From NCBI RefSeq assembly GCF_001293165.1, contig NZ_CP010552.1:1302001-1366000 (forward strand): a DNA stretch of 64,000 nucleotides, written 5' to 3'. Shown here piece after piece: positions 11,622 to 36,525 of the stretch; positions within the stretch are counted from its first letter, which is position 1; the number at the start of each line of letters is the position of its first letter. The notes under the pieces are model-generated. The model saw only the letters and a list, made by a program, of their open reading frames with translations. It was not told the DNA's origin and did no database searches. The translations under genes and the position numbers were made by a program. This stretch comes from Candidatus Thioglobus autotrophicus. GTDB taxonomy: Bacteria; Pseudomonadota; Gammaproteobacteria; PS1; Pseudothioglobaceae.

Positions 11622-12551
11622 ATGTTGCTTAGATTTTTGCAGACTATTATATTTTCGTGGGCTATTTTTCCAGCTTTTGCATACTCATTAGTTATCCCTT
11701 CGCCCTTAGTTGATACCGACTGGGTCAGTGAAAATATCGAAGATCTGGTGATTTTAGATGTACGTAAAGATCTTGATAGTTTTTCTGAGCAAGGCCATAT
11801 TCGTGGTGCAAACCTTGTTAACACCAAAAAAGTAAGAGTCACACGTACCATTGATGGTGTTGAGCTTACACGTATGAGACCCGATCAAGCTGGTTTTGAG
11901 CGCTTTATGTCGGCACATGGTGTGAGCAACAACTCTATTGTGCTAATCACCCATCAAGGGCAAACACCTGGAGATGTTGCTGGTGCAGCTCGCTTGTATT
12001 GGCAAATGAAGTATTACGGCTTTGAGCAAGTGTCTATGCTAGACGGAGGTGATGCTGCTTGGACTGCAAGCATGGAAGAATTAAGCAAAGATTCTACCAA
12101 GGTTAAGAGTGGTCAGTTTAATTTTGAAAATAACGCCAATAATAAAATTTTAGCAACCATTGAAGAGGTGAGGTTAGCGATACTTGATCCTAGTATTCAA
12201 CTAGTCGACACTAGAAGCTTGCGTTTTCATGTTGGCTTGGATAGTAGAAATTATGTGTATGATTTAGGCCATATTCCCAGTTCTAAGGTTTTTCCTTATA
12301 AATTTTTACACCCGCTCAAAGGGGTGATGGTTTTTCCTACTAAGCAACAAATAAAGGCCCGATTTAGCTCGCTTAATATCAACCCAGATGCATCGATTAT
12401 TTTGTATTGTAATAGTGCTTATGAGTGCTCATCTGTCTGGTTTAGCTTGCACGAAATTTATGGCAATCAAGCGGTTCAGGTTTACGATGGCTCGCTGCAC
12501 CAATGGACTAAAGATGCCAGCCACCCAATGACGATTAATTTAGCAAAATAA
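11622..12551 (+). CDS. Exported tandem-rhodanese sulfurtransferase
   Basis: A 309-residue protein with an N-terminal hydrophobic signal (residues 4-22, possible cleavage after AYS or FAYS), so probably periplasmic. Two rhodanese domains: the first (about 30-150, VILDVRKDLDSF, GHIRGANLV, MLDGGDAAW) lacks a catalytic cysteine, having THQGQTPGD in that place; the second (about 178-305) has an active-site loop starting at C263 in LYCNSAYEC, with a second cysteine C269 closing it. It would transfer sulfane sulfur from thiosulfate or polysulfide to an acceptor. Domain order (inactive N, active C) is usual for thiosulfate sulfurtransferases; export is less usual. It precedes the cytochrome/DUF302 pair by 85 bp. 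Confidence 0.85.
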   Translation: MLLRFLQTIIFSWAIFPAFAYSLVIPSPLVDTDWVSENIEDLVILDVRKDLDSFSEQGHIRGANLVNTKKVRVTRTIDGVELTRMRPDQAGFERFMSAHGVSNNSIVLITHQGQTPGDVAGAARLYWQMKYYGFEQVSMLDGGDAAWTASMEELSKDSTKVKSGQFNFENNANNKILATIEEVRLAILDPSIQLVDTRSLRFHVGLDSRNYVYDLGHIPSSKVFPYKFLHPLKGVMVFPTKQQIKARFSSLNINPDASIILYCNSAYECSSVWFSLHEIYGNQAVQVYDGSLHQWTKDASHPMTINLAK

Positions 12552-12564
12552 ATCTGTTTTTTTC

Positions 12565-12606
12565 TTGATGTAAATCAATCTTTTATCGGGCTTTCTATAT
12601 TAGAAT
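12565..12606 (+). promoter_or_regulatory. Perfect FNR/ANR-type box with class II promoter geometry
   Basis: TTGATGTAAATCAA at 12565-12578 matches the FNR consensus TTGAT-N4-ATCAA with no mismatch. A -10-like TAGAAT lies at 12601-12606. With transcription starting near 12613 the box centre (12571.5) falls at about -41.5, the canonical class II activator position. There is no good -35, as expected for an activated promoter. The downstream gene starts at 12637. This implies control of the cytochrome/DUF302 genes by an FNR/CRP-family regulator that is not encoded in the window. Confidence 0.8.
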
Positions 12607-12636
12607 GCTCTTATAAAAAATAAAGAGAGAAAAGTT

Positions 12637-13668
12637 GTGAAATCAAAGAAATTATTAATTATTTTATTTTTGCCCTGGTTGAGCTTTGCCGGTGGACAAG
12701 AAATCTATTCTGAAAATTGTGAAAAGTGTCATGGCTTTTCTCAACAAGGATCTTTAGGTTTACCACTGTATCGCTCAACGGTTGCGAATCATTCGGATGG
12801 CTACCTTAAGAAAACCATTGAGTATGGACGCCCTGGAAGAATCATGCCAGGCTTTAAACTCTCTAACGCTCAAACGGTTAAGTTAATTCGTTTTTTACGT
12901 GCAGGTGTTAAGGCTCCACAATATAGTAAAGAGCCTATTGTTGGCGATGTTGAGGCGGGTAAGTATACTTATGAGCAATATTGCCAAAGGTGTCATGGCA
13001 AGCAATTACAAGGTGGTGAAGGTACGGGTAAGAATTTCTCATGGCAAAAGGATCGAGATGTTTCTCCTCCTGCGCTTGCCAATCAAGGATTTTTGCATGC
13101 AGCTGAAGATCAAATGATTAAGCACATTATTATGAAAGGTATTAAAGATACAGAAATGATGTCGTTTGAAAAGGAATTTAATTTCACCGATCAAATGGCG
13201 AATGATTTGGTGGTTTATATTCGCTCACATCAGCAATCATCAGTCTTTAGCGATACACCCAAAGCTGTTGAGGATGAAGAGCCGCTAGTATTTGTTTATC
13301 AATCTCAACATGATCTTGCTACGACTGTTGATAAGCTCAAAGATTCTGCAGCAGCTTATAATTTTAGAGTGTATCCATCTAGAACTTTATTTGAAGGTCT
13401 TGGAGGTCCAGAAGGCGCTGATCAAAAACAAATTGTCGTGAGATTTTGTAATTTTAAAAATATGCAGAAATTCTTAAAACTCGACCCAAGGCTCGGCGTT
13501 ATACTGCCTTGTAGGGCGACAGTGGTTGAAAACAATCAGGGGGAAGTGCATATATATTTAGAAAACTACGTGCATGCAATTAAACGTTTTAACAATGAAC
13601 AAATTTCAATTGATGCTAAGGATTTGATTGACAGCATGAAAGAGATGGTTGAGGAGGCAGTATGGTAG
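12637..13668 (+). CDS. Periplasmic diheme cytochrome c fused to a DUF302 domain
   Basis: A 343-residue protein starting at GTG with a signal peptide (residues 1-18, LSFAGG). Two class I cytochrome c domains follow: heme sites C28-E-K-C31-H32 and C116-Q-R-C119-H120, with candidate axial methionines in RIMPGF (M70) and TEMMSF (M174/M175). The C-terminal part, about 218-335, reads as a DUF302 domain: VVRFCNF (C271), a LDPRLGVILPCRATVVE block (C292), then a polar strand. DUF302 has no established function. The gene lies behind a perfect FNR-type box and overlaps the next DUF302-like gene by 7 bp. It probably passes electrons in the periplasm; its donor, possibly a sulfur compound, is inference from the rhodanese neighbour. 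Confidence 0.85.
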   Translation: MKSKKLLIILFLPWLSFAGGQEIYSENCEKCHGFSQQGSLGLPLYRSTVANHSDGYLKKTIEYGRPGRIMPGFKLSNAQTVKLIRFLRAGVKAPQYSKEPIVGDVEAGKYTYEQYCQRCHGKQLQGGEGTGKNFSWQKDRDVSPPALANQGFLHAAEDQMIKHIIMKGIKDTEMMSFEKEFNFTDQMANDLVVYIRSHQQSSVFSDTPKAVEDEEPLVFVYQSQHDLATTVDKLKDSAAAYNFRVYPSRTLFEGLGGPEGADQKQIVVRFCNFKNMQKFLKLDPRLGVILPCRATVVENNQGEVHIYLENYVHAIKRFNNEQISIDAKDLIDSMKEMVEEAVW

Positions 13669-14117
13669 TTAGAGTTTTTGCTTTATGTGTGCTAATGTTT
13701 GCATCAGTGGCTTCAGCTGGACACAATGAATTATTGATTGAACGTGTTAACGCTAAGTTTTCTTATACTTGGCTTGCACTAGACAAAACCATTAAAGCCA
13801 ATGGCTATAAGGCGGCTTACTTACAGCGTTGTGATTTTGCCTTGAACGAGCGCCATTACAAATCAGATAAATACCGTATTTTGTTTTTTGGCCAATATGA
13901 TGAGATGAGGCGGATGAGTGCAAAATATCCTAAATTGTCACCGTTTTTCCCATTAAAGATAACAGTTATGGAAGAAGGTTTACATACATTAATCATTGCC
14001 ACACCGCCAATTACATTGCTGCCTTTGGTAAAAACTGATGAAGATAGAATGCAGATTTTTCGCTGGAATGAGGATGTAAAAAGTATCCTGAAACAAGTTA
14101 AAAACCAATATAAATAG
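13662..14117 (+). CDS. Exported DUF302-like protein
   Basis: A 151-residue protein with a signal peptide (residues 1-19, MFASVASAG) and a single domain resembling DUF302: a helix with LDKTIKANGYKAAYLQRCDF, a strand with YRILFFGQYDEM, then KLSPFFPLKITVMEEG aligning with the ILPCRATVVE block of the preceding protein. The LPC cysteine is replaced (FPL). It overlaps the diheme cytochrome gene by 7 bp with its ribosome-binding site (GAGGAG) inside it, so the two are translationally coupled and likely work together. Function unknown. Followed by a strong terminator. Confidence 0.7.
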   Translation: MVVRVFALCVLMFASVASAGHNELLIERVNAKFSYTWLALDKTIKANGYKAAYLQRCDFALNERHYKSDKYRILFFGQYDEMRRMSAKYPKLSPFFPLKITVMEEGLHTLIIATPPITLLPLVKTDEDRMQIFRWNEDVKSILKQVKNQYK

Positions 14118-14121
14118 ACAC

Positions 14122-14151
14122 AAAAAAGCCTTGATTTATCAAGGCTTTTTT
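14122..14151. terminator. Bidirectional intrinsic terminator
   Basis: GCCTTGA (14128-14134) pairs with TCAAGGC (14139-14145) around a TTTA loop, flanked by an A run on the left and a T run on the right. It serves both the cytochrome/DUF302 operon (plus) and the convergent fabI (minus). Confidence 0.92.
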
Positions 14152-29411: not shown

Positions 29412-30116
29412 TTAAAAACCTCCTTTCAGATACGCTTTTCGCTCAATTTCGGCCATGCGTTCAATCGCATATCTTAAAGTAGTTCTAGGGAGTTGTGCGT
29501 AATTTTCTCGTAAGAAAGCTTTGCAGGTGTCAGGATTTTTTTTATAAACCTCTCTTAGCATCCAACCAACAGCTTTATGGATTAAATCTTGCTGGTCGTT
29601 TAGCAGTAGTTGGCTAATCGTTAAAGTTAGTGTGAATTGATTTTGCTTGATAAAGGCGAGGGTTGCCACAATGGCAATGCGCCTTTCCCATAAATTATTT
29701 GATTTTGCCCAATCAAGCAAAAGACTATGTTTGTTTGGATGGCTGAGTAGATAATCACCAATAATATGCGGCGTTGAGTAATCAACCAAATCCCAATTAT
29801 TTACTGCCTGTAGATTTTTTAAATAATAATTAAAAACCGCTTCCGACTGGGAAGACTGATATTGATAAACTAGAATAATTAACCCACAGTAGCGAATTTC
29901 ATGAACAAGGTGATTGATTAATAGGTCAATTTCATTAAAGTTGATACGCTGATAATATTGCTTGGCAATTGAGCGAATTTGCGGCGTGCGCACGCCGATA
30001 AATTGGTCAAACTCGCTATACTCTCCCGGCCCAGTTTTAAAGTAATATTCGTTTGATTTTCGCCGAGAGTCGCTCGCAAAAGATTTGAGTTGTGTGATTA
30101 CTTCTTGGGCGCTCAT
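29412..30116 (-). CDS. AlkD-like DNA alkylation repair protein
   Basis: A 234-residue HEAT-repeat protein of the DNA alkylation repair (AlkC/AlkD) family. Visible: [24 protein letters not shown] split at residues 25-48, [48 protein letters not shown], and [10 protein letters not shown]. AlkD members excise positively charged 3-methyl and 7-methyl purines without base flipping. Aspartate in NWDLVD is the likely catalytic site. Divergent from msrA, with starts 40 bp apart. Confidence 0.88.
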
Positions 30117-30156
30117 CAGCTATACTATTATTTTTTTAAATTATATTGAATCATAC

Positions 30157-30648
30157 ATGCAAACAGCTTATTTTGCCGGCGGATGTTTTTGGTGTGTTGA
30201 AGCTGTTTTTCAACGTATTTCAGGTGTGGCGAGTGTTGAGTCTGGCTATTGTAATGGGCTCACTCAAAACCCTACTTATGTAGATATTTGCACCGGATTA
30301 ACTGGGCATGCTGAGGTGGTTAAAGTTAATTTTGATGAATCTCAGCTGAGCTTTACACAGTTACTACAGGTCTTTTTTGCCACACATGATGCCACGACGC
30401 TGAACCAGCAAGGTAATGACAAGGGCACGCAATATCGCTCAGCTATATTTTATGAAAATATTGAGCAAAAAAATCTAGCCCAGCAATATATGCAAACATT
30501 GGGCGACAAAATTGTGACAGAAGTGAGCGCCTTGGATGTGTTTTATCCAGCGGAAAACTATCATCAAAACTATTTTAATAACAACCCAGATCAAGCTTAT
30601 TGTAGAATGTTAATCATGCCAAAACTCAATAAATACTTTAATTCATGA
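30157..30648 (+). CDS. msrA: Peptide methionine-S-sulfoxide reductase MsrA
   Basis: A 163-residue cytosolic enzyme reducing the S epimer of methionine sulfoxide. The GCFWC motif gives catalytic C10 and C13, with [38 protein letters not shown] and AENYHQNYF following in family order. I chose the ATG at 30157, since the longer frame from 30085 adds 24 unconserved residues overlapping the divergent AlkD-like gene. Its TGA overlaps the next gene start by 4 bp. A second MsrA domain exists in the fusion protein at 35266. Confidence 0.95.
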
Positions 30649-35265: not shown

Positions 35266-36525
35266 ATGTTACTAGAAATCGTATTTGCAGCCGGTTGTTT
35301 TTGGGGTGTAGAAAAAAACTTTGAAAAAATTGAGGGCGTGGTTGAAGCTACCTCTGGCTATGCTGGTGGTAGCTATGCCAATCCTAGTTATGACGATGTA
35401 CTCAAAAATCGAAATCTTCAAAGCTCGGGTTTTGTTAGTTTTTTAGAAAATATTGGACTCACTGATAAAAGTGCGCTTGAGATCGACAAAGAATTGGTTA
35501 ATCATACTGAAGTAGTAAAGGTAACTTACAACCCAGCCAAAGTCTCCACCAAAACTCTGATAAAGAATTTTTGGGAAATTCATGATCCAACCCAAGTAGA
35601 TGGACAAGGTGGTGATATTGGTAATAATTATCGCTCAGCACTTTATTGGACCACAAAAGACCAAGAGGCAGTTGCACTAAGTACCGGGCAAAAATTCCAG
35701 CAACTGTTAACAGCTAAAGGCTATGGCAAGATTGTTACTGAAATTAAACAACTGGATAAATTTTGGCCTGCAGAAGATTATCATCAAAATTATCTAGTTA
35801 AAAATCCAAATGGCTATTGCCCTAATCATGCAACTGGTGTGAAATTTGATCAAGCCATGCAAAAGCAGGTAGTGCATGAGACGGTGAAACCACTTGGCGG
35901 GTTGGAGATTTTAGTGATCGAAGCAGAAGACAAAGGTTCGTGCTTATATTGTCTGCAATTTGAAAAAGAAGTTACGTCAAAATACAAAGGCAGTATTCCC
36001 CTTAGAAGTGCCCCGATGACTGCACTGCAAGGGTTTGATTTAAAAACACCAACTTGGGCAACGCCAACTATTTTCTTTATTAAAGAGGGTAAAGAAGTTT
36101 GGGCTCAGCAAGGCTATATGTCACCGAGTGAATTTTACAAAGCATTGGGTGAGTTTAAACTTGGAAAATCATCAGAAGCTTTTGATGTCGCTTTTAACAA
36201 AGGCACAGATGGCAGGTTTTGCAAGCAATACGATATTTTTAAAAATACACCTGATGGTGTATTTATTGATAAATTATCTGGCAGAGCTTTATTTGATACC
36301 CGTGATCGTTTTAATTCAAAATCTGGCTGGCTATCTTTTACCAAGCCGGTAGCGGGCGAAGTGTATGAAAAAGCCGATAACAGCTTTGGCATGACGCGCA
36401 CAGAGATACGCTCTGTTAGTTCAGATATTCACCTAGGCCATGTATTTAGCGACGGCCCTAATGGCAAGCCAAGATATTGCATTAATGCGACCGTATTAGA
36501 ATTTGTACCTAGAAAGGATAACTAG
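35266..36525 (+). CDS. msrAB: MsrA-thioredoxin-like-MsrB fusion, methionine sulfoxide reductase
   Basis: A 419-residue protein with three modules. MsrA (1-200): C11 in GCFWG, GDIGNNYRSALYW, AEDYHQNY. A thioredoxin-like module (about 212-305) with C226-L-Y-C229 and a TWATPTIFF cis-proline loop. MsrB (about 310-419): NSKSGWLSFTKPV, DIHLGHVFSDGP and catalytic C405 in RYCIN. The order differs from PilB-type proteins, where thioredoxin is N-terminal. The MsrA part has an insertion of about 25-30 residues (47-79) before NHTEVVKVTYNP. The MsrB part lacks the usual zinc CxxC pairs. No signal peptide, so cytosolic unless exported otherwise. The middle module could regenerate both reductases. Confidence 0.88.
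   Translation: MLLEIVFAAGCFWGVEKNFEKIEGVVEATSGYAGGSYANPSYDDVLKNRNLQSSGFVSFLENIGLTDKSALEIDKELVNHTEVVKVTYNPAKVSTKTLIKNFWEIHDPTQVDGQGGDIGNNYRSALYWTTKDQEAVALSTGQKFQQLLTAKGYGKIVTEIKQLDKFWPAEDYHQNYLVKNPNGYCPNHATGVKFDQAMQKQVVHETVKPLGGLEILVIEAEDKGSCLYCLQFEKEVTSKYKGSIPLRSAPMTALQGFDLKTPTWATPTIFFIKEGKEVWAQQGYMSPSEFYKALGEFKLGKSSEAFDVAFNKGTDGRFCKQYDIFKNTPDGVFIDKLSGRALFDTRDRFNSKSGWLSFTKPVAGEVYEKADNSFGMTRTEIRSVSSDIHLGHVFSDGPNGKPRYCINATVLEFVPRKDN

Follow-up and report, generated by a model that had tools for sequence, protein, structure and literature searches.

Proteins of the DUF302 family (PF03625) have solved structures, among them 1q9u and 1j3m, and the literature searched, as far as its text was available, assigns them no function. 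Sulfur oxidisers carry DUF302 genes inside their sox clusters: in Thermithiobacillus and Acidithiobacillus (PMC5037610) and in Sulfitobacter (PMC11034169), the gene lies between soxA and soxB or between soxF and soxH, and in the available portions of these papers its function is unassigned. In Bradyrhizobium, according to the accessible part of the report, a DUF302 gene adjoins ccoG and is induced in microoxia (PMC6515984). A description of a cytochrome–DUF302 fusion, or of the gene pair presented here, was not found in the partly available literature searched, which covers few subscription journals, and the text examined of the Candidatus Thioglobus autotrophicus proteome paper (PMC6509183) does not mention the gene.

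Results

Organization of the cytochrome–DUF302 locus

The locus belongs to the closed, 1,512,449-base chromosome of a Thioglobus/SUP05-type host, of which we analysed a stretch of 64 kb (bases 1302001-1366000; "the window", to which the coordinates below refer). Among named records, close relatives are found in Candidatus Thioglobus and in a Bathymodiolus thiotrophic symbiont, whose fusion proteins are up to 94% identical. An initial annotation, made from the sequence, had described a box, a diheme cytochrome–DUF302 fusion and an overlapping, exported DUF302-like gene, a layout borne out by coordinates, motifs, Pfam and predicted structure. The fusion gene (12637-13668, forward strand) has a GTG start and encodes an exported diheme cytochrome c of 343 residues with a C-terminal DUF302 domain, the signal peptide being recognised by eye. 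The partner gene (13662-14117, forward strand) overlaps its 3' end by 7 nt and encodes an exported DUF302-fold protein of 151 residues that lacks both family cysteines. A terminator-like hairpin, readable on both strands, lies 3' of this two-gene unit (14122-14151). The upstream neighbour is a tandem-rhodanese gene (Pfam; 11622-12551, forward strand), exported as judged by eye, which we place outside the module. No sox gene adjoins the pair in the window.

The fusion protein was compared with its relatives in a 78-row alignment (A4; excluded from the 80 named loci were L083, a broken gene, L090, with a late first heme, and L151, with a cut start). Both heme motifs, CEKCH (residues 28-32; 12718-12732, forward strand) and CQRCH (residues 116-120; 12982-12996, forward strand), are invariant in all 78 rows together with the Met ligand candidates M70 and M174, respectively, the pattern expected by sequence of a diheme c-type cytochrome. 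The DUF302 domain (residues 215-343; 13279-13665, forward strand) scored 29.5 bits against the PF03625 profile, for which the cut-off is 23, and matched 1q9u in Foldseek (E 2.6e-6). The predicted structure of the fusion had a mean pLDDT of 83.9, with weak stretches at residues 130-137 and 205-211, and inspection by eye revealed no membrane helix besides the signal peptide. The two cysteines of the domain, C271 (13447-13449, forward strand) and C292 (13510-13512, forward strand), are both present in 75 of the 78 rows; L081 and L082 lack both and L140 lacks one. They are not special to the module, since the solved DUF302 protein 1q9u has them too. Because the hemes and the DUF302 domain persist in L081 and L082, where cysteines and partner are missing, cysteine chemistry is not required for all functions; the two loci are close relatives, and the losses may go back to one event.

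The partner fell short of the family profile, scoring 19.8 bits against the PF03625 cut-off of 23. It matched 1q9u by profile (E 1.4e-4), and its predicted structure (pLDDT 91.8) matched the same protein in Foldseek (E 1.3e-8, TM 0.65/0.75); judged from profile and model, the partner shares the DUF302 fold. That its LPC cysteine is replaced had been noticed before, correctly, and in our alignment by eye the second family cysteine is absent as well. The sole cysteine of the mature partner is C57. Of the 78 mature partners in the alignment, 43 have no cysteine and 35 have one; in 30 rows a cysteine occupies position 57, which, as aligned by eye, is outside both family positions. Residues R28, Q55, Y71 and E105 are invariant.

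The fusion and its partner form a gene pair

The initial annotation had proposed that the two DUF302 domains act as a pair and that fusions be searched for across genomes. A profile built from 10 fusion rows was used at E 1e-20 to search 369 sampled genomes of Gammaproteobacteria, a class taken here in the GTDB sense, with Thiobacillus relatives included. Matches were obtained in 70 of the 369 genomes; nine were dropped, their match being confined to the cytochrome part, which left 61 carriers of the full-length fusion across 33 families. The partner profile matched 61 of the 369 genomes, and these were the same 61. In every carrier the two matches lie on one contig, with ends 3-168 bp apart. 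Among the 80 named loci, the partner ORF follows the fusion in 77. As to the three exceptions, the sequence of L143 stops 410 bases past the fusion, and in L081 and L082 some 2 kb of sequence is available there, with no partner in it; these two, the only partner-less loci with sufficient downstream sequence, are the same two rows that are without both cysteines. Eight of the 61 carriers have a second DUF302 gene, without hemes, and behind it a separate gene of the partner type. In a phylum sample of 90 genomes, 15 matched besides the host, among the matches listed in the cytochrome part only, and a search of plasmids gave no match.

These comparisons of sequence, together with those of the promoters below, make it well supported that fusion and partner are an obligate gene pair with a conserved promoter layout. 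The idea of a DUF302 pair is in line with the co-occurrence and adjacency in 61 of 61 carriers and with the eight heme-less paralogous pairs, physical pairing aside. Because such heme-less pairs occur, the core of the module seems to be the DUF302 pair, to which the cytochrome would be attached as a read-out.

An FNR-type box precedes the fusion gene

A box that fits TTGAT-N4-ATCAA without mismatch, TTGATGTAAATCAA, lies at 12565-12578 (centre 12571.5) and is the single such occurrence within the window. It is followed, after 22 nt, by the -10 hexamer TAGAAT (12601-12606, forward strand). Because this hexamer implies a start near 12613, the box centre would be at about -41.5, and class II activators of the FNR family use sites centred near -41.5. 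With the start so placed, the promoter has the class II layout, with a box near -41.5 and a -10 hexamer at about 22 nt, both conserved in relatives. A sigma-70 match with -35 and -10 elements was not reported for the promoter region of the fusion gene.

We then compared the 270 bases upstream of the fusion genes in the 75 of 78 loci that had sufficient upstream sequence. A box with at most one mismatch was present in 21 of the 75 (8 perfect and 13 one-mismatch), versus 19 of 487 homology-clustered ORFs (3 perfect and 16 one-mismatch) taken from both strands, some antisense to genes, and 12 of 269 non-overlapping genes whose upstream gap could hold a promoter (3 perfect and 9 one-mismatch; p 4.6e-8), the cleaner control; windows were anchored at the first heme codon for the fusion genes and at the ORF start for the controls. 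Outside the SUP05 clade, 17 of 65 fusion genes had a box at this tolerance. A first run with 57 loci counted 7 perfect and 11 one-mismatch boxes, where Markov sequences gave 0.08 and 0.96. For the remaining 54 of the 75 fusion genes, the upstream window contains no box within one mismatch, and the same holds for the eight heme-less DUF302 pairs. Spacing was assessed at 22 sites, namely the 21 of the relatives, several of them from related genomes, and the window's own: a TA-N3-T hexamer follows the box after 21 nt in 8 of 22 sites, after 22 nt in 9 and after 19-20 nt in none, and when similarity to TATAAT was scored instead, 19 nt did as well as 22 nt (at least 4 of 6 positions in 11 versus 10 of the 22 sites).

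Genome-wide, the host has 20 perfect boxes versus 3 for the reversed pattern; 13 of the 20 are inside ORFs and 7 are intergenic according to simple gene calls. Other perfect boxes precede a narG-type gene (named by eye), a norC-type cytochrome gene (by eye, with the cytochrome domain matched) and ccoG (TIGR02745, over cut-off), or lie between a hemN-type gene and that of an FtrB-like regulator (by eye, with a partial match). Of the further intergenic ones, one is before a ribosomal-protein-like gene and one beside a transposase-like gene. The host genome encodes four HTH_Crp_2 matches, three of them over cut-off: one is an FnrL/Fnr-like protein with N-terminal cysteines, its gene located near fccAB-like genes, and the remaining two are FtrB-like by sequence (one of the two was scanned). 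Two host regulators of the CRP/FNR type have a C-terminal cysteine cluster (L064 1643-2368; L071 1213-1938).

Taken as sequence comparisons, these data indicate that the box exceeds chance, the conservation of box and spacing in relatives being stronger evidence than the genome-wide counts. Because both are conserved, and despite the 54 box-less genes, class II control of the cytochrome–DUF302 fusion genes by an FNR-family regulator is likely. FNR-type control, which the initial annotation had read from the box of this one locus, is thus backed both by this conservation and by the same box at the host's narG-, norC-, hemN- and ccoG-type genes.

Most carriers are predicted sulfur oxidisers

By gene content, the organisms that carry the pair are mostly sulfur oxidisers. 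Of the 61 carriers, 57 have a soxB match and 48 a dsrA match; among the 308 non-carriers the counts are 105 and 71, respectively, in statistics that ignore kinship. The soxB count rests on 162 matches at E 1e-20, weak ones included, of which 148 were over cut-off. One or the other gene is present in 58 of 61 carriers, or in 57 of 61 if the weak soxB match of carrier G369 is discounted; the link to sulfur metabolism that had been suspected thus gains support. Denitrification was considered as a marker of carriers and is weaker than the sulfur markers: NirS-like genes occur in 31 of 61 carriers versus 42 of 308 non-carriers (kinship again ignored), within dsrA genomes the figures are 26 of 48 versus 30 of 71 (p 0.14, not significant), and a NirS-like gene is missing from 30 of 61 carriers, NirK being outside the search.

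The rhodanese is not a conserved neighbour

Rhodanese genes were found at 4 of 80 related loci (L075, L076, L080 and the broken L083), all of the SUP05 clade; at least 1.2 kb of upstream sequence was available for 67 of the 80. In L044, L045, L048 and L049 the pair is present with no rhodanese before it, and of these L045 keeps a perfect box and L044 a one-mismatch box. In the window itself the rhodanese ORF terminates before the box. We rejected the rhodanese as a partner of the module on the basis of these counts and of the relatives that keep the pair without it, and judge it, from the sequence context, to be an accidental neighbour. In the Bathymodiolus heckerae symbiont (L052 1897-3932; L083) both rhodanese and cytochrome gene are fragmented and the partner is intact, through decay or an assembly error.

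No conserved metabolic neighbourhood emerged among the 80 loci. Recurrent neighbours, named by eye, are parE/parC-, adenylate cyclase- and esterase-like genes, housekeeping in appearance. In genome G036 (L051 2529-8466) the pair shares an operon with a NapA/formate-dehydrogenase-like molybdenum protein and with NapG- and NapH-like proteins, all matched under the NCBIfam cut-offs. In L050 (the same locus as L081), NnrS and hemerythrin genes adjoin the fusion; the NnrS neighbour in L082 was assigned solely from gene size.

Seven DUF302 matches were obtained in the 1.5-Mb host genome, four over cut-off and one very weak. The contexts of those other than the pair were named mostly by eye (L008-L011): some of the genes lie between gapdh- and pgk-like genes or beside permease-like genes, another is opposite an exported rhodanese–metallo-beta-lactamase gene, and another is between the gene of a PdsA-like diheme cytochrome and fccAB-like genes. 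The last of these regions (L011 79-9078) comprises nap-like genes, soxY (Pfam), a soxZ-like gene, the PdsA-like cytochrome gene, the DUF302 gene, the fccAB-like genes and the gene of the FnrL-like regulator. The window contains two MsrA-like genes recognised by eye (30085-30648 and 35266-36525), the second within a long multi-domain ORF.

Discussion

We tentatively propose, with slightly less than even confidence, that the pair is a low-oxygen- or nitrate-induced periplasmic electron-transfer module with a sulfur-type donor in sulfur-oxidising Gammaproteobacteria. The class II FNR-family promoter would have the pair transcribed alongside nitrate-respiration and microaerobic genes. The C-terminal DUF302 domain of the fusion and the cysteine-less partner would form a heterodimer. 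A reduced donor in the periplasm would give electrons to its cysteine-bearing side, and this donor is probably a thiol, a sulfane, some other form of inorganic sulfur or a protein that carries sulfur. From there, electrons could pass over the two hemes, His/Met-ligated by sequence, to a soluble cytochrome c, and at low oxygen the cytochrome c pool would hand them to a cbb3 oxidase or to nitrite and NO reductases. We infer the dimer, its donor and the response to oxygen. That a sulfur species is oxidised is suggested by the carrier organisms, by the cysteine pair and by the DUF302 genes in sox clusters, as described in the available text of those reports. In the earlier interpretation, FNR-type control, DUF302 pairing and the sulfur link hold, all by comparison; the rhodanese as a partner does not.

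Alternatively, the diheme part could simply link bc1-type donors to cbb3 or denitrification enzymes at low oxygen, with the DUF302 pair in a docking or structural role and its cysteine pair structural. The heme motifs are invariant, yet two loci lost both cysteines; by sequence, the solved structure nearest to the heme part is a CcoP subunit; and the box also stands before narG-, norC- and ccoG-type genes. The strong association with soxB and dsrA is unexpected for a general shuttle, however, and the eight paralogous pairs without heme suggest a function of the DUF302 pair itself; we consider this explanation somewhat unlikely. Less probable still, in our view, is that the proteins mature, protect or sense components of the cbb3 oxidase or of denitrification, in assembly or NO handling, with no substrate being oxidised. 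The perfect boxes before the host's ccoG- and norC-type genes, the NnrS and hemerythrin genes at one locus, the microoxia-induced Bradyrhizobium gene beside ccoG, in the accessible part of its report (PMC6515984), and the commoner NirS-like genes of carriers would all suit such a role, but the NirS-like enrichment loses significance within dsrA genomes and about half of the carriers have no such gene.

It is doubtful, though conceivable, that the DUF302 heterodimer is a new kind of periplasmic sulfur dehydrogenase. In that case the cysteine pair of the fused domain, shaped by the cysteine-less partner, would withdraw sulfane or thiol electrons from a carrier such as SoxYZ or from a small sulfur compound, and the diheme part would relay them towards nitrate or trace oxygen. 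Such an enzyme would amount to a SoxCD counterpart that needs no molybdenum and that an FNR-family regulator turns on when oxygen runs low. The initial annotation had the module oxidise or sense a sulfur species passed on by the exported rhodanese. The rhodanese gene is adjacent and on the same strand, and its product looks exported by eye, but it is confined to a few loci of one clade, the cytochrome promoter is downstream of it, and relatives retain the pair without it, some of them with the box. This version was not borne out and we regard it as highly improbable.

The pair makes the function of DUF302 directly testable, since the domain comes with an obligate partner, a heme read-out fused to it and a promoter that can be recognised. 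If the module carries out a sulfur-oxidising step, SUP05-type bacteria of oxygen-poor waters, and the mussel symbionts related to them, would have an additional electron path between sulfur oxidation and nitrate respiration.

Compared with known systems, the module resembles the DUF302 family (PF03625; 1q9u, 1j3m) in having the same fold, as predicted, in the fused C-terminal domain and in the partner, and the fused domain retains the C-N...LPC cysteines of 1q9u. Unlike that family, it adds two c-type heme domains, an obligate cysteine-less second copy and an FNR-type promoter. With the sox-cluster genes it shares the presence of DUF302 in sulfur oxidisers, and it differs from them, as far as the available text describes them, in its cytochrome fusion, its partner and the lack of an adjoining sox gene (PMC5037610, PMC11034169). 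Tandem class I heme domains are also found in CcoP, a subunit of the cbb3 oxidase to which the sequence match was the best of any solved structure (E 1.1e-23), and in TsdA, for which the fold match was weak (E 1.6e-3, TM 0.23/0.31). The fusion departs from both in its extra DUF302 domain, in the Met candidates at both hemes and in having no further membrane helix by eye. The active-site heme of the thiosulfate dehydrogenase TsdA is His/Cys-ligated; we rejected a TsdA-type enzyme on account of the weak fold likeness and of the Met candidates at both hemes, judged from sequence. We know of no earlier placement of the cytochrome–DUF302 pair in the FNR/DNR-type nitrate-respiration regulons, and its likeness to them is the box itself, identical to that at the host's narG-, norC-, hemN- and ccoG-type genes.
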